Assembly: GCA_037042915.1 (NCBI GenBank)
Contig: CM073198.1
Coordinates: forward strand, 2,666,001 to 2,730,000
Source: Auricularia sp. M13
Lineage: Eukaryota > Basidiomycota > Agaricomycetes > Auriculariales > Auriculariaceae
Direction: 5' to 3'
DNA length: 64,000 bases
The translations under genes and the position numbers were made by a program. Numbering within the stretch: position 1 is the first letter of the stretch; every line of letters starts with the position of its first letter. This document shows, piece after piece, positions 620-62,405 of the stretch. The notes below the pieces were generated by a model, which did not search any database, was not told where the DNA came from, and saw nothing but the letters and a program-made list of their open reading frames with translations.

Positions 620-3600
620 ATGTCTGGGCGAGCGCCGCCGCGAGGCCCACGCGCGCTCTCCTCGTCCATACTCCCGCCCGCGCCGTCCGTGCCCGCGCCC
701 AGCCAGCCAGAGCCGCCTGCCGAGCCCCCGCCGCCGCTGCCCGCGTCGTTGCCGCCAACAACGCCAGCGGCGGCCTCGGCGCGCGCGCCTGTGCACATGA
801 ACGGCTTCGGCCACGCGTCTGGCGCGAACGGCCACGGCGCGCTGCTCAACCCGAGGCAGCAGCCGGTGTCGTTCAAGTTGAACGGCGCGAAGCAGCCACC
901 CGGCCAGCCGACAGCGACCTCCTTCATCCCGCCCAAGGTCCAATCAAAGCTGCTCAACACCGCCCACCGTCCGCCGTCGCCGCCCGGCCCGGCTCCTCCG
1001 CCCCCGCCCCCGCCATCGCTGCCGCCGCAACCTCCGCCGCCGCCGCCGCCGTCAACAGCGCCGCCCCCGCCCGCACAACCACCTCCTCCGCTGCCGCCCG
1101 GCCCGCCGCCCCCGCCCCCACCGTCTGAGCCGGCGCCCGTGCTACCACCGCCGCCTCCCATTTTCAGCATGAAACTCAAATCAGCGATTCCCGCAGCGCC
1201 GTTGCCTCCGTCGGCGGCGACCTTCCTTTCTCCGCAGCGCCAACCGCCTCCGCCGTCTGCAGCACCGCCTCCTCTTCCTCGTCCGCCGCCGCCGACAGCG
1301 TCAACGTCCATGCGACACGCTCTTCCGCCCCGTCCGCCGTCGCCGCGGCCGCAAAGTCCGCCGTCACGCAAACGCCCTCGCACTCCTCCCCGGCAGCGCT
1401 ACCCAAGCCCGCCTAGACAGTCGCCACCGCGGCCTCAGGAGATCACGCCGCAGACGTCTCCCGTGCAACCTACTCGCGAAGTCAAGAGGGACCTCACCCC
1501 GCCGCCAGAGCCTCGCCCGCCAACGCCAAAGGACATCGAGTACCCGCCGTGGCCAGGACCCGACCCGCACGACTTCAAGGTCATGCACGATCCCTTTATC
1601 GACAAGCAGGACATCAGCTTCAGAGGCAAGGAGCTCATCATCCGCTATGGTGGACAGCCTTTGAAGCCCACGGATCCACCTATCGTCGTCCAGGATCCTC
1701 GCATCGGTGCCGGTGGCGTGCGCAAACTGCCGCGCAAAGTCCGTCAGGATCTACACGTGATCGAATACGAGGTGAGTGCTTCTCTCCACCGCTGTCCCCT
1801 AGCGCGAATCGCGCTCCCGGCATGCTTATTCTGACTCTGACGTGCGCTCTCCTCGGTGCAGCACGACGAGAATTCAACGGGCCCGCCGCCGCCCACGGCC
1901 ATTGTCGTCCAGGGTCTCTCCCCGCTCACCCCGCACGCGCATGTTCGCCGACATTTTTCGCGCTATGGCACCATCGTCTCGTTCGAGCCTCAGGTGGACC
2001 GCTTCACGGGTAACCCCTTTGGCATCTGCTGGATCAAGTTCGACACACACGACATCGCGAAGCGCGTCGTTGCAGAAGAGAATGGCAAGCGCGTCGGCGT
2101 CAACAACAATGACGCCCAGCACGTCCTCGTCAAGTTGGACGGCGACATGTCCAACTGCAAGGCTGCCGTGCGCCAGGCGTACGACGCTAAACGCGCCCAG
2201 AAGAAGAAGGTCGAGGCTGCGCCTTCGACATCGACCTCAACCACCGCCGCGCAGCCCGAGGCTGGCCCGTCACAACAGCGCACAGAGCCTGCTGCCAGCT
2301 TGCCCACGCCGACGAGCTTGGACGCGTTTGGACAGCCTGTCAAGCACCCGTTGCCACCCCCTCCGACGACAAACCACCTACCTGCGCCCATCGCCTTCGC
2401 TGCGCGTGGCCGTGGACGAGGTGGACCGCCTTCGTCGACGCGAGGTCCGCCGTCGCAACATTTGGCGCATCCCATGCGCTCGGAGAACAGCTATCGTCCA
2501 CCAGAGAACAGCTACCGACCTGGCGATCGCGAATATGGGTATCGACGCGATAATTACCGGCGGCCGCTCCCACCTCGTTCGCCGTCGCGTTCGCGGTCGC
2601 CCTCCCCCGCGCCGACATACTACGGCCGCGGCCGCGAGAGGGAGCGGGGACGGGAGGACGACGATGCCATAGGAGACGCGCTGAGTTCCAGTTTGCACGA
2701 TTATATCAAGCTCGAGGGCGCAGGGCGCAACATAGTCGAAGAAGACATCCGCGGCTTCTTCAGAGGGTTTGAGGTGGACAAGGTGCGTCTATTTGCCCCC
2801 TCGTATTCATTCACACTTTTTTGCGTGGCGCGGACAATGGGCTGACGGCGGCGGTCCCGTTTATATAGGTCATGCGTGACTCCGTTGCATGGTACATCAC
2901 CTTTCGCGGCCCCTCACAAGCGCGGCGCTCGCACATCGCGCTTTCGGCACAGTACATCCAGCGCCAGACGGTGTCCCTGAGAGTCTGCAAGCCGCCTCCC
3001 CCACGCGCTGGGCCCGCGCGCAGCGGCGCCCGGCCACCGGCAGACGTTATGCGCCAGGCGAGCGATATGGTGTTCCGCGAGCTGCGGGATCTGTTGGCCA
3101 AGGATGTGCGCGAGCGCGTCGTGGCCGTCGGCGTGCGGTCTATGGTCGAGGACGCGCAGCACCATGCTCAGGCGTCCACCGCGGCCGCGGCTGCCGCCGC
3201 CCCGCCGGACGGTGAGCAGCAGCAGCCACAGCCGGTCAAGAAGAAAAGCCTCAAGGAGCTCTCGTTCAAGAAGAACTGCCCGCCGCTGTACGAACCGGGC
3301 CACGATCCCGGCGTCGTCTTCACGACGGGGATGCGTGTTCCTATGGTGGTCCGGAAGCGCTCGCCGTCACCGGAGGAGCGCGATGTGGAGTCGGAGGACG
3401 ACGACGAGGAGAACGAGGTCGCTGCCCGGCCGCCGGTCAAGAAGCGCCGGATTGACATCCAGGACATGCTCGAGTCGGACAGCGATCTGGAGCCGCCGCC
3501 TGCGCCGCCGCCCGTGCCCCCTATCGTCAAGAAGGTCAAGCCTTCTGAGGTGGTGAGGGAGGAGCCGCGCGCGCCGTCTCCCGCACCGGCGCCGGCGCCT

Positions 3601-5038
3601 GTGCCTGTCGCTGCGAAATCCAAGGCGAAGTCGAAGAAGCGGCCTGCCGACGGCGAGGCCAAAGGGCGACAAGCCAAACGCGCACGGACCGAGGAGCCAG
3701 AGCCCGAAGAGGAGCAAGACGCGGATGTCGCTGGCGAAGGCGTGGCTGATGTGGACGACGACCTGCTCGCTGCTGTGGAGGAGGCGCCGGAGAAGAAGCC
3801 GCGGAAGCGGAAATCTGCCCCTCTGACGAAGAAGAAAGGCGCGACCAAGAAAGCTGGCGCTGCTGCGAAGAAGAAGAGCAAAGCTGCTGCCGCCGCGGAA
3901 GCCAAGCGGTCGCGGGACGCGGACGCCATCTGGTCGTCCGACGAGGAGGACAAGGCCGGGAATGATGTCGTCCCTGCGGTGGACGACTCCAAGCTCGAAC
4001 CTGCTGTCTTACAATTACCGACGCCCAAGCCGCCTTCCCGGTCTCCGTCGCTCGAGCCTATTTCTGTCCCCACGGAGGAGCCGCCAGATCTTGGTGACGT
4101 TCTGCTTGATGAGGAGGATCGCTATTTCGCCCGGCTGGTCCTCGAGGAGGAGCGACCCGCCTTGTCACGTCGTCCACGGCAACCATTACCGCCGCCTGAG
4201 CCTGACGCAGACCAACCTCCGCCCTTCCGTGTGCACACCAGCGGGTCGGCGCGCACGGAAGGCTACTACAAGATCCCGCACAGCGCCAAGCTCGCCTACG
4301 TCGCGCAGTACAGCGACCGCATCGTACCCGCTCCTGGTGCAAATGACAACTCCACGTCCAACGCTCCGGCACCGGCGCCAGCTATATCATCGCGGTCTGC
4401 CCGTGCGGAGGGCCGTCGGCAAGCGCAGGGCTTTGAGCAGATCAACCGCACGCTGGCTGAGAGCGGGGACATGACGCTGATAAAGTTCAACCAGCTGCAG
4501 ACACGCAAGAAGCAGCTCCGCTTCGCGCGCAGTCCCATCCACGACTGGGGTCTATACGCGATGGAGCGGATTGCGCGCGGCGAGATGGTCATCGAGTATG
4601 TTGGCGAGATCGTCCGCGCGCCGGTTGCGGACCGGAGAGAGAAGCTGTACGAACGCCAGGGCATTGGCAGCTCGTATCTCTTCCGCATCGACGAGGAGCT
4701 CGTCGTGGATGCCACCAAGAAAGGCAATCTGGGGTATGTTCTCGGGCTTGTTGTGTTGTGCGTGACACTGACATTCCGTCTGCCTGCCAGTCGCTTAATC
4801 AACCATTCGTGCGATCCAAACTGCACGGCGAAGATCATTAGCGTCAACGGTGTCAAGAAGATCGTCATCTACGCCAAACAGGATATCGAACTCGGTGACG
4901 AACTCACGTATGGTGCGTATATCCGTCAACCTCTCGCCGCGCTGTTTCTGATGTCTTCCAGATTACCACTTCCCTCGAGAGGAAGCCAAAATCCCTTGCC
5001 TTTGCGGCGCGGTCAAGTGCCGGGGTTTCCTCAATTGA
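620..5038 (+). CDS. SET1: SET1 histone H3-lysine-4 methyltransferase (COMPASS catalytic subunit)
   Basis: Nuclear enzyme that methylates histone H3 lysine 4 within the COMPASS complex. Five exons fit the frame: 620-1771, 1862-2782, 2869-4733, 4791-4912 and 4962-5038, giving 1,378 residues. Residues 1 to about 380 are a low-complexity proline-rich leader. An RRM follows at about 394-470 (TAIVVQGLSPLTPHAHVRRHF), and a second RRM-like segment spans about 663-750. A lysine/acidic linker precedes the N-SET segment near residue 1150 (SGSARTEGYYKI). The SET domain runs from about 1237 (KKQLRFARSPIHDWGLYAME, YVGEIV) through the cofactor-binding NHSCDPNC motif, and the protein ends with the post-SET CLCGAVKCRGFLN. 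RRM plus N-SET plus SET is diagnostic of Set1 rather than other SET proteins. The introns at 4734 and 4913 interrupt the SET domain but restore it perfectly. The start is the first ATG of the long open frame; the proline-rich N-terminus is less certain than the rest. Confidence 0.93.
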
Positions 5039-5369
5039 CAGTCCTTGTCAACTGTTCTTGCTTGCTTGCTGTGTGTCGGTGTCTACGTTGCATCACGCTC
5101 TCTCGTCTTGCTGTCTTGTGTGTGCTTATACAATGGTAAACTATGTTTATATTCGTCCTTCACTGCTTGTATGAAATTGCTTATGCATATGGTCTACAGT
5201 GTAACAAGGATAGCTGCATTGCTTGCGCGGAACCCTCGCCAATTGTGTATGGAGATGCGCGTATACTACCAAGATTCCCTAGAAACGAAATGACATCCAT
5301 GCTCAACCAAAACATCCCATGAGATGGGCAAAAGGGCTCCAGCGACGGTGATCCAGATGAACTCAACGC
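5039..5369. other. convergent 3' intergenic region (SET1 / QTRT2)
   Basis: Tail-to-tail spacer of 331 bp between SET1 and the queuine transferase subunit. It is relatively T-rich on the + strand just after the SET1 stop and presumably holds both 3' UTRs. No gene is seen. Confidence 0.6.
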
Positions 5370-6918
5370 TCAGCCCTCGGCCTCCGCAGCGAGCAGTTTC
5401 TCGCGCGCAAGCCGACCTTTTCCTCTTGCCAGGTCCACGTCTTTCCAGTCTCGGCGCGCATCGCCCAAAACACGCATGGCACCGTCGTAGTGCGCGACGA
5501 ATTTGTCCACCTCGACCTTGTAGGCATCCTCGCCGCCTGCGGATAGGACGCGCCTGATCCCATCGAAGAAGGCGTCTAGCACAGTGAGGTTGTGCGCAGC
5601 AAGCATGGCGTGGGCCGACATCTCGTGTGTGTGCAGAAGGTGGTGAATGTATGATCGCATGTAAGCCTTAGGTTTGAGAGCGACATCGCTTGGCAGAGCG
5701 TCTGCGGGGGTGCTATGGGCAAGATGTGCAAGGGGTACCGATGGGCAACAGGCCAGGCAGGGACACTCGGGTGGTGCCGTACTGAACGACGAATGGTCGT
5801 GTGCGTATCGTTCATCGTAAAGGTTGTGACCGAGATCAACCAGGCCATCGTCCCGCCGCCGCGGGGCACGCGAGCTGCTAGTATGCTCGGGAGGCACAGG
5901 GAAAACAAAATCCAGCGCCACACCATAATGCGCTGCATCTTGTGCCCATTGACCGTCAAAGAGGTCAATCCCGATATCCCTGACCAGCAGCAACACGTCG
6001 TGTGGCGAATGTGCAGTGTGTGCGACGCGGAGTTTGCCTGCGTCGAGGGCTGCCAGTGATGCGTGCAGGTAGGGAGATATGTCCTGCTTCTTGTCTTCGG
6101 CGTCCGCAACACGACTTTCTGCTACGGTCTGACGTAGATACGCCAGATCGAACACAAATCCGCTCACGGAATCGTGCAGCGTAGTGCGCTCCGGAAGGTC
6201 GTCTGTACCCTCGTGTAAGAGAGCATCTGCGAAAGCTCTACGTGCACCCAAGTTTGCCCCACCGACCATCTGGACCAGAATATTTTTGGCGCCACCGTTC
6301 ATTTTCAGGAGCGACGTTATCCAACCTGTCGTTCGTTCGATGCTCCTAGTGAGCCGCCGTTGAGAGTGTGGAGGGGCCGTATAGGGTACGTCGCTGATGG
6401 CCTCGAGCAAGTCGGGCTTGCACGCGATAGCCTGGGAGTGAAAAGCCCCAGAGGCAGCCTGACGGACCCCGCGTCCTGTCCAGACTGTAACATGGTCATT
6501 TCCGTTTGGCGGCGCAATGCGCAAATCGGACGGGTCACGCAGAGCCAGAGAGAGAAGATGCTGTTGCCAGCGATACCCAGCGAAGTCGTGCAGCGGGTAC
6601 GATGATGGGTAGAGCGGTGGCAGCGGTGGCGACTGCTCTAAGCTAAAATCAATATGAGAGCAACTTCGCGCAGACCGTTCACGCTGATACTGACAAGGAA
6701 GCGTAAGGTACATGCACCCCTCGTATTGCCAAGGTTTCTAGCACGCTATCACGTGACAGATGTGGAACGGCGCCACGATGCGTCGATGCCAGGTACGCAG
6801 GTGTATGAAGCTCGATACGCGACTGATCTTGCCGGGAGACCAATATGTGCCCTAGCCGCGGGGCAAAACGCGTAGTCGAGCTCGTTGGGCTGAGCAGACT
6901 GAACGTAACGTTGCTCAT
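5370..6918 (-). CDS. queuine tRNA-ribosyltransferase accessory subunit 2 (QTRT2-like)
   Basis: Predicted non-catalytic partner of the eukaryotic tRNA-guanine transglycosylase, which swaps guanine-34 for salvaged queuine in GUN-anticodon tRNAs. Two exons: 6691-6918 encodes the N-terminus, including TPAYLASTHRGAVPHLSRD and IRGVHVPY, and 5370-6632 encodes the rest, joined by a 58-nt phase-0 intron; 496 residues in total. The family signature is clear: a CPCLAC zinc-ligand cluster near residue 360, then YIHHLLHTHEM supplying the histidine ligand, and a long C-terminal helical tail ending in basic and alanine-rich residues. This motif order matches QTRT2 (formerly QTRTD1) rather than the catalytic subunit. 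The long open frame extends upstream of the true second exon and would give a false N-terminus; the RGAVPHLSRD segment decides the start in exon 1. It sits tail-to-tail with SET1 and 121 bp downstream of an NLR gene on the same strand. Confidence 0.85.
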
Positions 6919-7039: not shown

Positions 7040-10000
7040 TCATCTATGGACCGCTAGTAACTCATTACATTGCTTTATTCCAGGACCCCATTCCAGACGC
7101 TCGTACTCGTTTAAAGCGGCCCAGCAGAGCTCGTGTGCCTTCTCGTCCTCGCCACGCTTGAAAGCAATCCTGGAGAAACGCAGCCGCGCGTCCGACAGTT
7201 CCTTCCTGTTTGCAACTTTGCACAGGTGAGGAAGGATAGCATGTGTCATTGCGACACAAGCATCGGGATCTCCGTCGGAAAGGCACGCATCGGCAAGCAT
7301 GTTCAGAGAGATGAGCATCTCGGTGAACTCTTGCGTCTTGCGATTGATAATTGCTGCCAGAGAAAAGAGGTTGGCGGCCTCTCCGTAGTCGCCCAGCATC
7401 TGGTCGATGGTTCCGAGTCGCCTGATCGCTCCGGCCTCGTACTCGAGATGTCCGTCCTTTCGAAAACAGTTTCGGGCGGTTTGCGCGACTGCCCTGGCCT
7501 CAATGATATCTCCTCGATAAAGAATGATGTCACTCCATGCGTAGGCACACATGGTGCGCCCCCACGACCACTGAGATGGGATTTTCAGCACAGCGATGTT
7601 AGCAGCCGTCAGGCTGCATTCCGCCGCGTCAAGGTTTCCGAGAGCCGCCTGAGACCACGAAATGAATACTAGAGCGGCCACTTCGAGCATCGCCGCTCTA
7701 CCAGTTCGATATAGTGCAAGGGCGGTTAACAAGAAGTCGAGTCCACGGCGATGTTCTCCCATAGATATATGCGCCATCCCGACCTGACGGTGACAATCAG
7801 CCTCGTCCACTGGCTGACGGACCCGTTGCTGCGTCAAAGGGAGTGCGATCTCGAAAAGCTTGAGTGCCTCCCGCGTACGCCCGCGTGCAACGAATATTTC
7901 CCCTAGTTCTCCCAGCGCGCGCGCGTACAGGCTCGCGTCGGGGTGCGTCATCGAGCCGAAGATGGCGATTGCTTCCTGAAAGTGAGCAGTTGCGCGGTCG
8001 AGCTCGAGCAGACCCATTCTTGCATTCCCGACGCACAATAGCAGCGTCAGGAGAAGGTCAGCGTTGTTGCCAGCACGAAGATCGGCAAGATTAGTCTCTG
8101 CCTCTTCTACCATTGGGCGCTCACAAGAGTGCTTTGCGAGCGAGCCAACAGCAAGCACACGTCCATTCGTGTAACCAACCTCCACAGAACGCTTGTGGGC
8201 GTCGGAAAACAGCTTTTCGGACTGCACAGGGTCTATCCCTGCGTATATCCATTGAGCGGCGCAAAGCATCGTGTCGATCTCGAGCTCCTGGTCACCGAGG
8301 AAGCGAGCGGCTTCGAGCGCTGCCTCCACAAGTCTCGGTGGCCCGAGACGCGTCCTCCAGTAGAAAAGCGCCAAAGCATGGACGGCGCGGACAATTCGGG
8401 CGTCGGGACGACATGAGAGCGCGTGACGGATGACACTATCAAAGTTGCCCTGCTCGTGAGCAATCATATCTAGCAGAGACGAGTCGACATTCGGATATGC
8501 TTTGAATGCCTCGGCCGCAGATACGTAGTGCTCATATAGAGAGTCCAGATGCGCTGGTTTGGGTGCATGATACTGCAACATGAACACTCTGATAGGTGCG
8601 AGTACCCGTATCCGCCCATCGACCAACGAAGTGCTGTACGCCAGAGAAGACTGCAGAAGGCTTGAAAGACACCGCAATACATTCGGTAGCGCCGGCAAGG
8701 CGGCCCCGACGTCAAATTGGCGAAGTCCGTCCGGCAAGAGAGAGAGAAGAGACAAGACCGTGATTGCGTTTGGAGACGAGCATATGCGTGGCGACTGCAA
8801 GGATAGGGAAATAGAGCGGCCGAGACTGGATAGGCCACGGCCGTGACCATGACCAAGTGACGATGCGTTGAGCTCGTTCCATCGGAGGAGCAACACGCCA
8901 CAAGACTCGGATTGTGCCATGTTGGCCAGGAGAACAACCACCAGGGGGACGCCATCTGCCAGCGATAGCAACCGATCCATGTCCGGGTCTGAGTCGGCTT
9001 CGGTGATGCTCGTGAAGACTTGGCGAGCTGCCTGCTCGTTGAGCGGGGGTAGCACCGGTAGGAAGGGGTGGGTCCAGGCAACTCCATGTGGCCGCTCTGT
9101 ACCACGCATTGTAATGATGATGGAGAGAGGCGAGACCTCTGATAGAGCAGAAAGTAGCGATTCCACGCCCATGCGGGTCAGAGTTGGCTCCCAGACAGAC
9201 TCGAAGTTATCCAACACAATAAGCGTAGGACGCTCGGCTTCTCCAAGCCAAGAAATAAAAGCTCTTTGTGCAGCCCTTGTGGAGTTGGGAGAGCTGAGGC
9301 CCGCTACACTGAGTAGCAGGTGCAGCAGAGCCTCAAATGAAGTTGCCCCCTCGCAAGCGACGAATAAGCGCCTGTCATCGAAGTGATGCGCGACGCGCGC
9401 GTGGTGCAGAACTGACAGAGCTAAAGACGTCTTTCCAATACCCGGCCCACCCAAAATGGCTACACGGCCAGGAGGAGACGCCTCATCGCAGAAAAGCTCG
9501 ATGAGCGCATCTATTTCGGCGTCACGACCGAATAGAAAGGCGGGGCGAGCGGGTAGACGGGGACGGCCAGCCATTGCATTCATTTCTTGCTTGATCGCAG
9601 ACCGTGCGGACCGTCGGTTCGCCACATGCTCGTTGACGTCGTCGGCCTGGCTCTTCAGAGTACGAAAAACTTCGCCACCTTCGAGAATGTGCAAGCGGTT
9701 GAGCTCAGACTTCTGCAGGAAGATCTGTGTTTGAATCTGACCCAAAATCATGAGTGCATGAGGATGTCAGCTAAACGCGGATATAACGCACGTGAAATAG
9801 CTGTAGCGCTTGCCGTATGTCTTCATTGAAGCCAGTAAGCAGCTGAGCCTCTCGTTCTTTATGCAATAACGCGCGGAGACGTGATTGGTGGGCGTGTAGT
9901 TGAACAAAGTTGAGAATTTCCGAGACTTTCTGGCCCAATTCTTCGAGGAAGACCAAAAAGTCGGTGCTGTACTGTATCTGGGTGCCGAGTTCGTCGCACT

Positions 10001-10232
10001 GTGCCGTGACAGCCTCTACAAGCTCAGAAACTCGTGCAGCCAGAGACTTGAATGCGTCTTTGTTGCTCGTAGCTCTCTGATACAGATTTTGTCAGTGGGA
10101 AAAAGACGGGATCTATTTCCTTACTCGTGCACCATCAACGACTTCGCAAGATGCTGCGATGACTGCAGTCATAATCGGGAGGCCACTGACCGATATCGTC
10201 GTCTCTTTGATCAGGCGGGCGGAGAGCGACAT
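7040..10232 (-). CDS. STAND/NLR-type receptor A: helical N-domain, NB-ARC/NACHT ATPase, TPR repeats
   Basis: Signal-transducing ATPase of the fungal NLR type. Three exons: 10125-10232 (36 codons), 9792-10076 and 7040-9736, total 1,029 residues. Exon 1 is a hydrophobic, glycine-containing segment. Exon 2 is a helical region (SLAARVSELVEAV, FLEELGQKVSEILNFVQ, FNEDIRQALQLFH) resembling four-helix-bundle N-domains of the MLKL/HeLo-like kind (inference). The nucleotide-binding domain follows: LFGRD near residue 195, P-loop GGPGIGKTS near 228, Walker B LIVLDNF near 301, and a later DGVPLVVVLLA that fits the GxP(L) motif of NB-ARC proteins. The C-terminal half is a run of TPR-like helices (for example ALYRTGRAAMLEVAALVFIS). 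No WD40, ankyrin or LRR repeats are seen. The neighbouring gene B has the same exon plan and nearly the same length, so the two are a tandem duplication. The trigger and downstream effect are not visible in the sequence. Confidence 0.85.
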
Positions 10233-10886
10233 GGTTGTACGCAGTACAGAGCACACGGCCGGAACGCGGAAGAAATGGCGTCGTTGCCACGTTAAGGGTC
10301 CGAGTCTTCTGCATGACAAAATTTGAGAAGACTGAGCATTCTACCAAACAATGCGGCTAAGATAGGCAGTAGTTCCTCCACGAGACAGCAGGTCCATGAG
10401 GGTGTGGGCCTGAACATGAGCGCATGACATCGTGATGATAGCGTCCGAGAATATGGCACTGGGCAAGAATCCGAAAAAAGGTTCAGATGAGGTCGAACGT
10501 TGCAGCACGGGCATGTCAAGGTTGTGTAGAGATAGATAGTCCAACGCCACGGACCGCCCAGATAAGGACCCCGAGCGCTGAGCGCTCATGGCGCCGCCGC
10601 TGCCGAACAAAACACAGGAAAGCCGCGGGCTATAGAAGCCAAGGATTGAAACGCTTTGTGCATGCGCAACCTCAAACTGCACAGTAAGAACGAGTCAGAT
10701 CAGAGAAGAGACCAGACTAGTTGGAACAGTTGTCTTCAATTTCAAAGTCCGAATTGTCCGAATTGTTCAGTTACCGACTTAACTCAGCTACTTACTTACT
10801 TATAAGTTACCAGTTTCACAGCGTACAGTGATAGCTGTTCAAGGAGCCTCGTATTGCATTAACGGGACTTGGTATGATTGCGAAAT
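10233..10886. other. intergenic region between the two NLR genes
   Basis: Holds the 5' region of receptor A and the 3' end of receptor B. A minus-strand open frame of about 113 codons lies at 10341-10682, but its translation shows no domain, no similarity to the flanking NLRs and no neighbouring splice partner. I see no supportable gene. A duplication remnant is possible. Confidence 0.45.
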
Positions 10887-13800
10887 TTATGTGTCCATGC
10901 GACAGGCATCTAGAAGGGCTCGACAACGTATTACACCATACTCCCACTCCAATTCCCGATAATCCTCCAGTGCAGCCGCGCATAAATCTCGAGCGCGAAC
11001 GATGAGCTGCCGTCGCTTGGCGATCTGTGCGAATCGAAAGTTTATATCAGCGAGTTCCTTTCGACTCCCCAGCCGCGCCAGTGGCGGACTGACTGCAAAC
11101 GAGAGGTTGATCGCGGATGTCTCGTCCCCTTGCGCAAGCCAGACGTCGGCAAGCCTGTTCAGTGCAACGACAATGTTGATATACTCCAGCGTTTTCCTAT
11201 TGAGTATGGCGGAGACAAGGAAATTCGTCTCTGCGTGGGGGTAGCGCTGTTCGACCAGGTCCAGGAAGCCCAGTCGCTTCAGCGCCTCGGCTTCATAATC
11301 GCGCTGCGCAATGCGTCGAAAAGTATCCCGCGCGGCACGATATACGACCCGGGCGCTCTCGTAATCTTCTCGATAGAGGCTGATATCGCCATGCGCCCAG
11401 GACTGGAGAGTTCTGCCGAAGGACCAGCTCCCCAGCCTACTCAGGCATTCGGAAGCGAGATTGAGAGTATCTTCAGCACCTACGAGGTCGTTTATTGCAG
11501 CCTGTGACCACGATATGTGAACCAGCGCTGCGACTTCAAACATCGCCCAACCGCCAGCGCGGTAAAGGTCCAGGGCAAGGTTTAGATATTTCAGTCCGAG
11601 CCGATGCTCCCATAGCGCAATATGCGCCGTACCAATTTGTCGAAGACAGTTTGCTTCATCGATCTTGCGGCGGTGCCGCTGTGCAAGAGCGACACCTTCG
11701 CGAAACAGCGGAAGTGCTTCTTGAACTCTGCCCTCGACGACGAGAATATCTCCGTACTGCCCAAGAGACGTCGAGAACTGACTGGGGTCCGGGTTCTCTG
11801 AAGAGCGGCAGATCGCAACTGCTTCAGCATAGTATGCCTTGGCCTCCGCTAGGCGCGTGAGCCTCTCGTTGGCTTTTCCTAGGTTTATCAGAGTGATGGT
11901 GATGAGCAGCGGGTCGTTCGTTCCTCTAGCCAGCGAAAGCGCGCGGGCTCCATATACCAGCTGATCGGCTTGGGCGTTGAGGGCAGGCAGCATGCCTAGC
12001 GCTCTGATCTCGCCGCGAACATAGCCGAACTCCTTTGATAACGCCAGAGCTTCGTCAACCATTGCTTGGACGCGCTCGTGGTCGCGCTTGCCCCAGTTCA
12101 CAGAAGCAGCGTTGTGAAGGCAGTCGACTAGTAATTCCGTCGCCTCAAGATGGCGCGCTGCTTCGAGACCAGCCTCGATCAGCTTTGGAGAGCCCAAATG
12201 GTTACGCTGGAAGAGCAAAGATAGTTGAATGGTAGCCTTGACCTTGTCCTCATCTGGAGTGTGCAGGAGTCCATGGCGAAGAACGGAGTCGGCGTTGCCC
12301 AGCTCGTGCGCAATGATGTCAAGTTGCGCCTGGTCCATGTCGGGATACGTCGCAGATGCTTCGGCAGCTGTAACGAACCTAGCATACAAGCGCGATAAGC
12401 TGCTAGCTGTGGGCGCACGAGTGCGCAACATGAAGGCTCGGATAGGCGCTAGGACTTTGACACGGCCAGCCTCGGACATCCGGTGCGCAAGAGCAGTGCG
12501 TAGCAGGACTGCAACGCAACGACCAGCGTGAGGGATATCACAAAGCTCGGAAACATCCTCTTGCTTTATGCCATCGGGGAGCAGGGAGAGGATAGACAGC
12601 AAGAGCTCGGCATTAGCTGCGAGGCTCATACGCGGGGCTTGTAAGGATAAGGTAATGGATACGTCGAGGCTTGATAGCCGATCATCGCCGAGGTTGAGCA
12701 TGGATGTCTGCAACTCGTTCCAGCGTTGTAGCAGGGACGAGCATGACTCGTATGCCGCCGTAGTGGCAATGAGGCGGATGGCAAGAGGGACGCCATCGGC
12801 AAGGTCGAGGAGCGCCTGCAAGTTCGGGTCATGGTCGATTTCAGATATTGTCGCAAAAGCCTGACGCGCGGCGTCCTGCGCAAGAGGTTTCAACGGCGCG
12901 ATGAACGGCTTTGTCCAGTTTGTGCCGTTTGGGCGCTCAGCGCCCCGCAGCGTCACGACCAGAGATAATTGGGGCACTGAAGAGAAAGCTGTAAGCAGCT
13001 CCTCAACGCTGCTACGGAAAGCAGCGTTATCCCACGGTGTCTCGAAGTTGTCGAGAATCAGAAGCGTGCGCGCCTCGGTAAGCCACTTGAGAACTGATTT
13101 CCTCAACACGGCGCTGCTGGAAGCCCTGATTCCGAGCGCGGTCCCAAGAAGACCCAGAAGCGAATCATGGTCTTGCGCAGAGTCACAAGCAATGAATAGG
13201 CGCCTGTCTCTGTATCGTTCGACGACTGCGGGATCATGCGCGACGGCAAGAGCGCATGACGTTTTGCCCATTCCGGGCGCGCCGAGTATGCAAACGCGAG
13301 CGTCGCCGCCGTCCGCTGAAGCCAACGAGCTGACAATTTGCTGGACCTCGTCATCGCGTCCGAACAGCAGCTGCGGATGCGGTGGGACATTGGGCATGGG
13401 CACACCGGCATCGATAACAGGTTGCAGACTCTGTTTTCTAGCTTTGACCTTTTGCCTGTGCGCGTGGATTTCTTGGGCGTTTGTCTCTAGCGCTTGAATA
13501 ACGTTGAATCCTTCGTCGGTTCGAACCTTCAAAGCATCGACGTGGTGCATTTGTAGGTAGCTCTGAGTCTGTAATATTGAATGAGAAGAATGAGATTGGA
13601 ACAACAAGACCAGTACGTGCATTAAAGATGGCCAGGGCATTGGTAATATCGTCCTGGAAGGCTTCCAGCTGTCTCGTATCCCGTTCTTGGAAGACAAAAG
13701 CCTTCAATCGCGATTGCTTCAATTTCAGCTTTATGAACTCGTTGATTGAGAGCAGCTTGTAGCCCAGGTCATCGAGGAATGCGAGGAGCTCTTGAGGTAA

Positions 13801-14082
13801 TGCTGGCGTGCCGTCGCTCATGAGGCCATCCACATGCGTCGTAACAGCCTCAACAAGCTCGGAGACGCGTCGCGCGAGATGCTGAAATGCAGTACGATTC
13901 TGGGAAGTGGTCTGATCGATTTTTAGAACGCAGGTACACTGGGTTGGGATTAATGAGACCCTGTCTGCGCTCACCTGGGCACTGTCAAAGATTTCACCCG
14001 CGACACCGACAATTGCAGGCAAAATCGGCGGGCCTGCAACGCGGACCGCCTCTCGAAGGACGCGCACACCCACAGTGGCCAT
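10887..14082 (-). CDS. STAND/NLR-type receptor B: helical N-domain, NB-ARC/NACHT ATPase, TPR repeats
   Basis: Paralogue of the adjacent receptor A. Proposed exons: 13975-14082 (again exactly 36 codons, starting MATVGVRVLREAV), 13621-13911 and 10887-13568, giving 1,026 residues against 1,029 in A. Exon 2 again encodes the helical bundle (HLARRVSELVEAVTTH, FLDDLGYKLLSINEFIK, FQDDITNALAIFN). The ATPase shows LFGRDDEVQQIV, P-loop GAPGMGKTS near residue 227, Walker B LLILDNF near 302 and DGVPLAIRLIAT. A long TPR region follows (for example ALPLFREGVALAQ, GLKYLNLALDLYRAG). The junction of exons 2 and 3 is odd: no well-placed GT donor keeps the frame, but a GC donor after AIFN gives a 52-nt intron and restores it. 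If that intron is not used, the gene may be disrupted at this point. The start was chosen by alignment with the first exon of A; an in-frame ATG lies 18 bp upstream. Confidence 0.8.
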
Positions 14083-14520: not shown

Positions 14521-17500
14521 TCAGTTCCGTATACAGTAACCCGAGGCGTACTCACGGTTTCGGGACACCTTCACCACGCCATGCTTGTCCACAGTGGCGC
14601 CCGTGTCAGATGCTGAGACGCCTGCCATATTAAGCTCCTCCACAATGACACTGCTCAGTCCGAGTGGATCTCGGGGGACCCAGATCCAAGGAGCAGGCTT
14701 ATACGTCGCTGGATGATCGAATGCGTGCTCATCGAGCTCGACATCGGCATCGTCATCGTCATCTGCATCTGTGTGCGATTCGCGTACGAACGTATCGGCA
14801 GCCGAAGGTTGCGAGTGATGCGAGACGAACGGAGGCGGAGGTGGTGGCGGTGGACTGGTGACAGTAATATTGGGCTGTGGCGCACTGGGATGGCGGTTGA
14901 CGGCCGTGCTCGATCCGTACGGTGAGCTCGGAGAGCCTGCTGATGAATGAGATGAGGTACCCGATTTTAGGGCTTTCGGTATGTGGAGCTGTGTTGAGGG
15001 GATACTCGGCATATGCAGTCGGCTCGCTCCTTGCTTCAAGCGATGCTTGACCACAGCACGAATATCTGCGAGACGCTGAATGCCAGGACCACCTATCTCT
15101 GCCGTGAAACTTACGCTCGCGATTGAAGAGGTCAATGTCATCAGGAAGTAGCGACTCCAAGCCAGACTTCTTGCGTTCCTGCTCGTACCTCTCCCTCATG
15201 CCCTTGGTCGCAAGGGACATAGGAAGATTTTCCACAATGTCTAATGAAACAATTGTCAGCTCATATGCCCTAAGCCAGAGAAACCATCTCACCGTCGAAG
15301 GAGTTATGAAGCATCACCTGCGCACCAAATGTGAGGAAGACAAGGATCACCTGCAGTACAGATTGAGCAAGCAAATACAATCACGATAGGCGATATCACC
15401 CACCATAAATGCGCCTTGTATCGCGGATGCCACGCGAGCTCCGTCAATTCCAAGCCGGAGGAAGAGTAGGCCAGCAACCGTCACTTGTTGAATATACAGT
15501 CCAGCGACTGAAGACGGCGATAGTCAGGATACAGCTCCTGTGTCACTACGATACGCACAAACGTTGGATATCGCCTTGGGATACTAGACGCCGTGAGGTC
15601 AGTCTCCCCAATAGCTAGATGATCCGACATCTACGCACGTAGAGCCCTCCCGTTTCGTTTTGCTCGGGCTGGTCCATAACGTAAAGGAAGAGATATTTGT
15701 ACGCAAACCACAGTAATCCGGTAGCGATGAGGGCAACGACGTTCATGAGCGGGTTGATCACAGCGTACGATAGCCCGATAGTAGCCTATAAAATCATATT
15801 TCAGTTTCGGCGCCGTCGAACATGCGAATAGGCGGTGCACCAGTAAGCTAATGGGCGGTATGATTACTCCAAAGTCGACGGCTGGCATGATGAACGAGAC
15901 GCTGTAAGCCTCGCGACTGCGCTCATCAGTGAACACGCGCGCGCAAAAATGCAGATGACCTACGGCGTTCGTCCAAACAACCACTTCTTCACATAGTGAA
16001 GGATGAGAGGCACTAACTGCAAGAAAGCCATGCCTGCTCCCTGGAAGCCCGTCCCATTCAGCTGCGCTGTCGAACAAATAGGAAAAGTGAATGTTGCTCA
16101 CAGTGAACCCAGTGCTAATGATATACTAAGGGAGGAATCATGAGCAAGCTCTCTTTCATGAACGAGGGATGAAATAAGCTCACCGTCAAAAAATACGTGC
16201 CGGCTTGGGGCAAATTATTTGCAAGCATCCTAACGGCCTCAGACGGCCGGTCCAACACTTGCGGAATCGCCGCGATGAGACTGGACGACAGGGTAGTCAC
16301 AATGAAACCATGGACGACCAGGAATAGGAAATAACGCGTGTAAACGCGCTGTGAAACGAGGGTATATCGCGGTACGCATTCGAACCACGCCAAAGCTGCG
16401 TCCGAGCCATTAGCATGTCGCAGCCACGACAGTGGGAAAGCTTACCGCGCAGTATGAAGGGGACGAGGAAAAATAGAATGGCGATTACAAGCGGCGGGAC
16501 CACACCCTGTATCAGGCCGAGCGCAACGTCGGGCACTAGAAAGAGCAAATCCGCTTCAGCGATGTCTTTGGGCAGCGCGACCCTTTTCACCTTTACAGAT
16601 CCAAGCCAGCCATCTGACTTGGTCAGATTGAATTATAGGGACACACGAAACTGAGGCTTACTTTGCGCGAGTGCACCAAGTCGACTGCATAGCCGTCAGG
16701 ACGCGCATACGGATGATATGAGGTCGGAACGTACAATGTTGCTGATTGTTCCAGCGAAGCTGACGAGCGGCGCGTAGCCAATAATGAGGCCAATCGTCGC
16801 AAGCCATGATATAGCGAATCGAGCGCGCGTTTCGTATGAGCCATCCTAGACACGCAAACCTTTCTCAGCAATTGGGCGGATGAGGCTTCGAGGTCATGCT
16901 TACATCAATGTTGGCCCACACAATGTCTTCAGCTGCCACTTCTGTCCATTTATCGGACATCTTCAACGGCTAGGGCACACATTGTATCAGCATAGAAGAC
17001 TCAGCAGGTCTTCGAGCTTAGGATGCGCACCTCGTGATAACTGACACACTGCGATATATTGAGCATTGAGCATTTGGCGGGATTCCGCGCGCACGACGCA
17101 CCTGGTCCATAACATGCGCACCCAACTGAAGGTTGAACTCAATGAAAGCCGATCCAGCAGGCTGGACATGCGGCAGATCGTGTCTCGCGTCTGCAATCCT
17201 GCGGTCCAGGTCGGGAATGACAGCCTGAGCGCGTAGCAAGGGTTACAATACTGTAAAGCAAGCCCAGCAGCGCGTCGCGCACCTTGGCCCAATCGATCGT
17301 GTCCACCTTCTTGCCCACAAGCCCCAGCATGCCCAGCCGGTGCTTCGGGCGGTGCTTCGGCGGAACGAGCTCGTCGAGAAGGGCCCGCGTCGCAGTGGGG
17401 TACGGCACATCCACGCCCTTCTTCAGCGCACGTTTCACGCGTTTATTCTGCACCTTGGTCGCGCGCCGCAGGACCTGCGTTACGGCCGACTCGAGCTTCT

Positions 17501-58284: not shown

Positions 58285-61200
58285 ATGAGCCGTGCGTTTC
58301 TGCACTAGATACAGATAGCCCAACTGCTCACGCTGCGCTGGCCGTGCAGAATATGGGACTCAGACTGCACAGTACGAGTACGACGATGACGAACGGTACC
58401 AGGAGGACGATTATGAGGACATAACGCAGGAAGACTGCTGGACCATCATTTCCTCGTTCTTCGAAGAAAAGGGTCTTGTGCGCCAGCAGCTCGATTCGTT
58501 CGACGAATTCGTGCAGAACACGATGCAAGAACTCGTGGACGAGAACGCGGAGCTCATCCTGCATCAGGGGGACCAGCACACCGGCCAGGAGGGCGACGCT
58601 AATGTGAGCATATTGTGTTCGTGACATGTCTCAGCGTCTGACACTTGCAAAGCTTCGCCATGAAATCAAGTTCGGGCAAATTTACCTCTCGCGACCAACG
58701 ATTACGGAGGCGGACGGCAGTGTGACTCCCGTTTTCCCGCAGGAGGCGCGCTTGCGCAACTTGACATACTCTGCGCCGCTCTATGTTGAGATGCGCAAGT
58801 CCACCCTTACCGGTCGAGAGAGCGCAACAAAGCCAGGCGACTATGACTGGCAGCGAGACCCCAACGAATCGGCTGAAATGCAGAAAATTTGGATCGGGAA
58901 GGTGTGTAAAACCCGCCCCCTTGATATGTTGCGTTAACGCGCATGCTGTCAGGTCCCCATTATGCTGCGCTCCAGTTTCTGCATCTTGAAGACTCTATCC
59001 GACCGAGACCTCTACGACCTGAACGAATGCCCTTACGACCAGGGCGGTTACTTCATCATTAACGGCTCTGAGAAGGTCTTAATTGCGCAAGAACGCATGG
59101 CGGCGAACCATGTCTATGTCTTTGCCAAAGCTCAACCGTCACCCATCAATTTCCTTGCCGAAATTCGCAGCGCAGTTGAGAAAGGAGGCAAGACCATCAG
59201 TTCGTTCCAAGTCAAGATGTTCCACCGCAACCAGGAAAAGACTGTACGCTGCGTCAGTCTCTGCGACGGCAAAATTACTGACTGTTAGTCAGAGCGGAAA
59301 CACGATCAAGGCGACCATCCCCTACATCAAGCAGGACATTCCAATCTGGATTGTCTTCCGTGCGCTGGGCGTCATGTCGGACCGCGACATCCTCGAGCAC
59401 ATCTGCTACGACATGCACGACGTCAACATGTTGGAGATGTTGAAACCTTGCATTGATGAAGGCTTCGTCATCCAGGAGCGCGAGGTCAGTAACTGCAAGA
59501 GGTCGCAAAGCAGCTGACTCATAGTTACTGCAGCAAGCGCTGAGCTTCATCGGCGTGCGTGGCACAACCACAGGTCTGAACAAGGAACGGCGTCTGCGCT
59601 ATGCGCAAGAAATCCTGCAGAAGGAGATGTTGCCACACATCTCGATGGCTGAAGGCTCAGAGTCAAAGAAGGCTTACTTCCTCGGCTACATGATCCACCG
59701 CTTGCTGCTCGCCGCACTTGAGCGAAGAGAACTGGACGACCGTGACCACTTTGGCAAGAAACGACTTGATCTGGCGGGACCGTTGCTCGCCAGCCTGTTC
59801 CGCATGCTATTCCGGAAGTTAACGAAGGATGTTTATCGGTACCTGCAAAAGGTTCGTATTTTTACCTGACGCACATGCTGCGAGTCTACAACGTCCTTTC
59901 AGTGCGTGGAAGCGCGCAAGGACTTCAACCTTAACCTCGCGGTTAAGGCGAATACCATCACCAATGGTCTCAAGTATTCGCTAGCCACGGGCAACTGGGG
60001 CGACCAGAAGAAGTCTATGAGCGCCAAGGCTGGCGTGTCGCAGGTGTTGAACAGGTACACCTTCGCCTCTACGCTTTCGCACTTGCGGCGGACGAACACG
60101 CCGTTGGGACGTGAAGGCAAAATCGCGAAGCCGCGCCAGCTACACAATACGCACTGGGGCATGGTCTGCCCTGCGGAGACGCCGGAAGGACAGGCGTGCG
60201 GTCTGGTGAAGAACTTGGCGCTCATGGCGTGCATTTCGGTCGGCTCGCTGTCTGCACCGGTCATCGAGTTTTTGGAGGAGTGGGGTTTGGAGTCGCTCGA
60301 GGAGAACGCCCACTCGGGTATCCCGTCGACAAAAGTTTTCGTGAACGGCGTGTGGATGGGTGTCCATCGCGACCCCGCCAACTTGGTTAAGACGATCAAG
60401 AAACTGCGTCGGAAGGACGACATCAGTCCCGAGGTCTCCGTGGTACGAGACATTCGCGAGAAGGAGCTCCGTCTGTACACGGATGCTGGCCGCGTGTGTC
60501 GTCCGTTGTTCATCGTCGAGGACCAGCAGCTCGTGATCAAGAAGCATCACGTCGAGTGGATCCAGAACAAGCAGGATGAGCACGGCGCGTCCTTCAAGTG
60601 GGATAACTTGATCAAGACGGGCTTGATCGAGCTGTTGGATGCTGAGGAGGAGGAGACGGTCATGATTTGCATGACGTCGGACGACCTGGAGAACTCTCGT
60701 CTACAGAGCCGAGGCATGGCGCCGCGCGATGCGGACAACGAGTTCGACCCAGCTGCGCGCCTGAAGTCGGTCGTCAATGCGCACACTTGGACGCATTGCG
60801 AGATTCACCCGAGTATGATTTTGGGCATTTGCGCGAGCATCATCCCGTTCCCCGACCACAACCAGGTATATATCACACCGCGATCTTGTTGAACCTATAC
60901 TTATTCTATTTACAGTCTCCCCGTAATACCTACCAATCGGCTATGGGCAAGCAGGCTATGGGCATCTACCTGACGAACTTCCAAGTACGGCAAGACACAA
61001 TGGCGAACATTCTCTACTATCCTCAGAAGCCCCTTGCGACGACGCGCTCGATGGAATATCTGAAGTTCAGAGAACTTCCAGCCGGTCAGAACGCCATCGT
61101 CGCTATTCTGTGCTACTCCGGCTACAATCAGGAAGATTCCGTCATCATGAACCAGAGCTCCATCGACCGTGGCCTCTTCCGTTCCATCTATTATCGCAGC

Positions 61201-62405
61201 TACATGGATGTCGAGAAGAAGTCGGGAATGGTCGCGCTCGAAGAGTTCGAGAAGCCGACTAGAGACACAACCCTCCGTATGAAGCACGGCACGTACGACA
61301 AGCTCGAGGACGACGGTCTTATCGCGCCGGGCACTGGTGTTGCTGGAGAGGACATCATCATCGGAAAGACTGCACCACTGCCGCAAGACAGCGAGGAGCT
61401 GGGGCAGCGCACGCGCACGCATCAGAAGCGAGACGTCTCGACGCCGCTGAAGAGCACGGAGAATGGTATCGTCGACCAAGTGCTCATCACCACGAACCAA
61501 GACGGGCAGAAGTTCGTAAAGATCCGTATACGGTCGACGCGTGTGCCGCAGATTGGCGACAAGTTCGCGTCTCGTCACGGTCAGAAGGGTACCATCGGTA
61601 TCACCTATCGCCAGGAGGACATGCCCTTCACTGCGGAGGGCATTACGCCAGATATCGTCATCAACCCGCACGCCATTCCGTCGCGCATGACTATTGGTCA
61701 CTTGGTCGAATGTCTGCTCTCGAAAGTTGCGACTCTCATCGGCAACGAGGGTGACGCAACGCCGTTTACGGACCTGACTGTCGAGTCCGTGTCGCAGGTC
61801 CTGCGTTCGAGAGGTTACCACTCTCGTGGGCTGGAAGTCATGTACCACGGTCATACCGGTCGCAAGCTGCAGGCGCAGGTGTACCTTGGGCCGACGTACT
61901 ACCAGCGTCTGAAGCACATGGTGGATGACAAGATCCACTCTCGTGCTCGTGGGCCCGTACAGATCCTGACTCGACAGCCCGTGGAGGGTCGTAGCAGAGA
62001 CGGTGGCCTGCGCTTCGGTGAGATGGAACGCGATTGTATGATTTCGCACGGCCTCGCCGCTTTCCTGAAGGAGCGCTTGTTCGACGCCAGCGATGCGTAC
62101 AGACTGCATGTCTGCGATATTTGTGGCTTGACTGCGATTGCGAACCTGGTAAGTGGCATGGTCTCTGGAGTGGGCCTCTTGTCTGATGATTGGTGCAGAA
62201 AAAGCAGAGCTTTGAATGCAGAGCTTGCAAGAACAAGGTCGCAGTTTCGCAGCTGTACATTCCGTATGCTGCGAAGCTTTTGATCCAGGTCTGTTCTTCG
62301 CGGACGTTAGTGCGCTGCATCAGCTGACATACTCTCCAGGAATTGCAAAGCATGAATATCGCAGCACGTCTCTATACAGTGTCCACAGGTCGCACGCGCG
62401 ACTGA
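58285..62405 (+). CDS. RPB2: RNA polymerase II second-largest subunit (Rpb2)
   Basis: Catalytic-core subunit of RNA polymerase II in the nucleus. Ten exons: 58285-58291, 58350-58603, 58653-58901, 58953-59252, 59293-59484, 59534-59851, 59903-60865, 60916-62148, 62199-62288 and 62340-62405; 1,223 residues, almost exactly the yeast length. The first coding exon is only 7 nt (Met, Ser and one base of the third codon). Conserved blocks: [10 protein letters not shown]-type [20 protein letters not shown] in the protrusion; [35 protein letters not shown] with the preceding [22 protein letters not shown] with the Glu-Asp pair that contacts the catalytic magnesium; [18 protein letters not shown]; and [20 protein letters not shown] in the hybrid-binding region. 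The C-terminal zinc site is formed by CDICG and CRACKNK across the last introns. The third exon could start at 58635 instead, adding six residues. Confidence 0.96.

Follow-up and report, generated by a model that had tools for sequence, protein, structure and literature searches.

Tandem fungal NLR-type receptor genes with putative MLKL-like N-terminal domains in Auricularia sp. M13

Two adjacent genes on the minus strand, at positions 7040-14082 of the window (the whole stretch of 64,000 nucleotides that was analyzed), raise the question of what kind of receptor they encode and what the domain at the head of each protein could do. A preliminary description took them for tandem NLR-type receptors, in which a hydrophobic N-terminal helix and an MLKL/HeLo-like bundle precede an NB-ARC-type ATPase and TPRs. 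The reading favored here, and held to be quite probable, is that they form a tandem pair of fungal NLRs of the “all-in-one” type with a BaMLKL-NB-ARC-TPR layout, which would kill by release of helix 1 of the bundle and which stem from an old duplication. Sequence comparison carries the gene structure, the identity of the NTPase and TPRs, and, at the level of the family, the homology of the bundle to that of MLKL.

Two intact genes with one architecture

The genes are intact and lie head to tail, gene B upstream and gene A downstream, with 654 bases between the stop codon of B and the start of A. In the splice model, gene B begins with an exon of 36 codons (13975-14082), which holds an extension of ~20 residues and the start of an MLKL-like helix 1. 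A phase-0 intron of 63 nt (13912-13974, GTGAGC...TCAG) separates it from exon 2 (13621-13911, 97 codons), which encodes the remainder of the bundle. Intron 2 (13569-13620, 52 nt) leads to exon 3 (10887-13568), which holds a linker, the NB-ARC-type NTPase, and the TPR region before the stop codon. Gene A follows the same plan, with a 36-codon exon 1 (10125-10232) of the same content, a phase-0 intron of 48 nt that contains an in-frame stop (10077-10124, GTAAGG...TCAG), an exon 2 of 95 codons with the rest of the bundle (9792-10076), a second phase-0 intron of 55 nt (9737-9791, GTGCGT...TCAG), and an exon 3 (7040-9736) laid out as in B. The products are 1,029 (A) and 1,026 (B) residues long and share 41.7% identity over nearly their whole length. 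Thus, the tandem arrangement, the three-exon plan, the 36-codon first exon, the protein lengths, and the clear divergence of the two genes, all claimed earlier, are present in the sequence.

Both introns of gene A and intron 1 of gene B are of the GT-AG type, whereas the length of 1,026 residues for B presupposes a GC-AG intron 2 (donor GCACGT). Donors of the GC type are uncommon across most genomes, and a weak GT alternative exists 15 nt downstream, which would give an intron of 37 or 43 nt and a protein of 1,031 or 1,029 residues. The GC donor lies at the homologous position and is the preferred, though unproven, choice. A GC donor at the last N-domain intron is modeled in three of the 22 family members described below (B, L052, and L058), and L052 has another at intron 1.

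The P-loops GGPGIGKTS in A (9425-9451) and GAPGMGKTS in B (13257-13283) can be read directly, and the NB-ARC profile of Pfam is over its cut-off of 23.5 bits in both proteins (A 25.5, B 23.8 bits), as the preliminary description would lead one to expect. The AAA_16 profile (cut-off 32.6 bits) is exceeded by A at 45.6 bits and missed by B at 30.9 bits. The TPRs are borne out as well: TPR_12 scores 51.7 bits in A and 40.4 bits in B against a cut-off of 30.1, with three stretches per protein. No kinase or pseudokinase domain is found in either protein among the Pfam matches listed up to E 5. By an NB-ARC domain with an intact P-loop and by C-terminal repeats, A and B can be classed as fungal NLR/STAND proteins.

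Small exons, paralogues, and the origin of the pair

The N-terminal domain is spread over small exons, which makes their reality the next question. The genome searched comprised 52.1 Mb in 14 contigs, and exon 3 of gene B matches 44 stretches in it, B itself and A included; these are stretches and not genes, several of them coming from one gene in some cases. Twenty relatives with upstream DNA make up the paralogue set, and together with A and B the family has 22 members. A plain HMM of the two N-domains, with no splice model, finds pieces upstream of several paralogue NTPases, the best in L052 (E 3.6e-6). The counts used as evidence come from splice-aware alignment with an unrefined profile of A and B only, and the control was 40 dinucleotide shuffles of the same paralogue stretches. 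With this profile, the 20 paralogues score 18 to 150 versus a maximum of 0.7 for the shuffles. Directly behind exon 1, 19 of 20 paralogues have an intron at profile column 37 in phase 0, against 0 of 40 shuffles; for the last N-domain intron the counts are 13 versus 1, and for a phase-2 intron 17 versus 5. Chance assembly of the exons is ruled out by the shuffle controls. Because the place and phase of intron 1 are conserved in the paralogues and not in the shuffles, the small exons of A and B are, on this comparison, real.

When the profile was rebuilt once on its own first results, the first intron appeared in all 20 paralogues, the last one at columns 132-136 in 19 of them (at 146 in L059), and the phase-2 intron near column 86 in all 20; the phase-2 intron is absent from A and B. 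The three-exon plan therefore describes A and B and fails as a family plan, since 20/20 paralogues have one exon more. The figure of exactly 36 codons likewise holds for the pair and only approximately for the family, whose first exons comprise 33 to 39 codons (L056, whose exon 1 is modeled with two extra introns, is unsure). Intron 1 of gene B is itself open and in frame (21 codons, no stop), as is the one in L048. A retained-intron isoform was considered and dropped, because chance alone should yield two or three introns of this sort among 22 by a rough estimate (one third in phase, ~0.4 of these without a stop).

How the pair came about can be approached through trees. The NTPase tree pairs A with B (97/92) and joins L052 to them next (98/95). 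The N-domain tree has the same order with a weaker A-B fork (95/76) and comes with a long-branch warning from the program. L052 retains the phase-2 intron. The three-exon plan is derived, probably by a single intron loss before the tandem duplication, because the intron lacking in A and B is carried by all 20 paralogues; the pair would then go back to an old tandem duplication. A stretch of contig C6 (~0.32-0.85 Mb) holds 14 of the 44 matches to exon 3 of B, and the A/B pair stands apart from this group, at 2.67 Mb, amid housekeeping genes. Its neighbors in the window are a SET1-type methyltransferase (SET and N-SET, 2872-5136), a tRNA-guanine transglycosylase (TGT, 5373-6737), the tail of a PHM7-type transporter (14524-15195), and the C-terminal part of the RNA polymerase subunit RPB2 (60646-62280). 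Elsewhere, L054 (C1:4.86 Mb) and L055 (C1:0.83 Mb) are near-identical receptors ~4 Mb apart on the same contig, with L050 close to them; they are read as a recent dispersed duplication in a family that is otherwise old.

Identity of the N-terminal domain

A profile of the 22 N-domains was compared with the PDB, and MLKL accounts for every one of its best seven matches (E 7.4e-11 to 8.5e-8), the next match standing at 0.051. The homology spans positions 24-135 of the family profile. At E <=1, Pfam MLKL_N matches 20 of the 22 members (best 6.6e-10), while no HeLo, HeLo-like, or Goodbye family is listed for any of the 22 at that threshold, within the filters of HMMER. Membership in HeLo or Goodbye was rejected on this ground. 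The MLKL/HeLo-like head proposed earlier is thus supported by sequence at family level, with MLKL_N/BaMLKL as the better label by these profile matches.

The result belongs to the family more than to the pair. Taken singly, A and B reach 13.9 and 15.4 bits against MLKL_N, under the cut-off of 27. Five paralogues scanned singly include one that passes (28.5 of 27 bits) and four at 19.2 to 23.9 bits. A phmmer search with the N-domain of B found no MLKL, and a profile built from A, B, and L052 places MLKL third at E 0.52, which is not significant; neither B by itself nor these three could be tied directly to a solved structure. Searched against the genome, exon 2 of B alone recovers no sequence besides itself and A. 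What ties the pair to its family is the profile of the 20 paralogues, which finds A at E 2.9e-16 and B at E 2.8e-25, the paralogue models having initially come from searches that used the A+B profile. In a one-pass version the values are 2.3e-19 for A and 8.7e-28 for B, versus 0.01 to 1.6e4 in three shuffled pipelines (the lowest of the three trials for A being 0.01). The homology of the A/B head to the MLKL four-helix bundle is supported at family level by these comparisons. By its profile scores, the pair is the divergent end of the family, and its link to MLKL rests on the wider set.

The domain extends from residue 1 to about residue 150, over three exons. The alignment pairs residue 23 of B with position 3 of the MLKL_N profile, which means that ~20 residues stand before the MLKL-aligned part. 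From this alignment, we infer that exon 1 encodes these extra residues together with the beginning of a putative MLKL-like helix 1, and that the intron cuts that helix. The leading segment is a candidate counterpart of the published helix hG. The hydrophobicity expected of the N-terminus is there: the best 17-residue Kyte-Doolittle mean of exon 1 is 1.93 in L052, 1.79 in A, and 1.57 in B, which rank first, second, and fourth among the 22 members. The proposed order of a hydrophobic helix followed by the bundle needs refining, the MLKL-aligned part starting near residue 20.

An exon-by-exon search of the genome with MLKL_N misses A and B and finds only one other locus, L061 (C1:5833000-5836600, minus strand). 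There, a stretch of MLKL_N type scores 24.1 to 25.9 bits alone and 28.7 bits when its in-frame neighbors are included. Behind it come further exons of helical appearance and then a protein kinase domain (PK_Tyr_Ser-Thr) that has the VAIK, HGDLK, and DFG motifs. This would be a fungal case of an MLKL-like bundle combined with a kinase, as read from separate, unjoined exons. A relative of its first stretch, at 36% identity, lies at C1:1502273-1502404.

Known systems, proposed function, and alternatives

The receptor design is already known in print, and A and B are soundly regarded as a fresh example of it that comes with a gene model. The available text of Wojciechowski et al. (2022; PMC9815663) describes the BaMLKL class as MLKL-like N-domains of Basidiomycota NLRs with an extra helix, hG; it counts 600 sequences, predicts the bundle fold from cluster alignments, and names TPRs among the fungal NLR repeats. 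A and B share with these receptors an MLKL-like N-domain that follows an extra N-terminal segment and is fused to an NLR NTPase. They differ in lacking one intron of their own paralogues. The family also differs in that none of its 22 members matches Goodbye or HeLo-like Pfam models, whereas the largest such cluster in PMC9815663, as far as its text was available, overlapped both (CDD was used there, Pfam here). The term BaMLKL is, in the literature searched, confined to that paper, from which the word “intron” is absent, and no publication that deals with how BaMLKL receptor genes are divided into exons was found when papers were judged by title and the start of the abstract.

MLKL itself, the executioner of animal necroptosis (PDB 4btf, 6ux8, 2msv), shares the homologous four-helix bundle, but A and B have an NTPase and TPRs with no kinase or pseudokinase match, and they carry the N-terminal extension. 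With HeLo, HELLP, HET-S, and the HeLo-like NLRs of Ascomycota (PMC12881547, PMC10197012), the likeness, going by the portions of these sources consulted, is a proposed superfamily with a membrane-targeting first helix and some “all-in-one” NLRs; the difference is the lack of any HeLo or HeLo-like match at E <=1 in the 22 members, within the HMMER filters. Two reviews, in the parts available, describe fungal NLRs with built-in HeLo/4HB-type domains and suggest killing by cation channels.

By analogy with such systems, A and B may recognize non-self and kill cells. At rest, following NLR and MLKL biology, the NTPase would keep the bundle in monomeric form. Binding of a ligand to the TPR superhelix, whether it comes from the host or is non-self, would bring about nucleotide exchange and oligomerization, and the clustered bundles could then free helix 1 into a membrane, so that a hyphal compartment is killed or sealed off. 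The hG-like segment is a candidate cap, because it would need to shift aside for helix 1 to be released.

That the extension sits ahead of the very helix used by MLKL is also a counterpoint to killing, and it feeds the main rival, in which the bundle is only a signaling or oligomerization adaptor that makes no membrane contact and recruits a separate effector, such as a stand-alone bundle protein. The divergence of A and B from MLKL fits this as well, and the genome has at least one further MLKL_N stretch, with a kinase domain behind it, as a possible partner. The fusion of the bundle to the receptor argues the other way, as does the high hydropathy of the first exon in A, B, and L052, which is what a membrane-seeking helix would be expected to have. 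The adaptor is on balance considered unlikely. For Goodbye-like domains, which also bear an extension, PMC9815663 asks, in its available text, for experiments before killing is credited to them.

A bolder version of helix release makes exon 1 a conserved gate module, the first half (hG) acting as cap and the second half starting the killing helix. Splicing at the phase-0 intron (~codon 36, modeled in 22/22 genes) would add or withhold the membrane-active end, and activation would displace hG upon NTPase oligomerization. We know of no counterpart in MLKL or HET-S to such a control step, and the gate is given little credence. Least credible of all is that the two are duplicates adrift, at least one of which has ceased to work as a receptor, or general STAND regulators outside immunity: one paralogous stretch has an internal stop (C4:555211-557409) and the pair sits among genes such as those for a SET1-like protein, TGT, and RPB2, away from the C6 paralogues, but at 58% divergence both genes still have frames open for ~900 codons, intact P-loops, and introns that look plausible, which suggests long-kept selection on both genes.

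In the literature as far as available, BaMLKL receptors have so far been treated computationally, in papers that call for experiments. With these isolated, intact receptors, a firm gene model, a paralogue set, and an N-domain boundary, the questions of whether BaMLKL domains kill and whether hG caps them become testable. Also, the exon map may help to recover the BaMLKL domain from the genomes of other basidiomycetes, in which profile searches run exon by exon overlook it, as happened with A and B.
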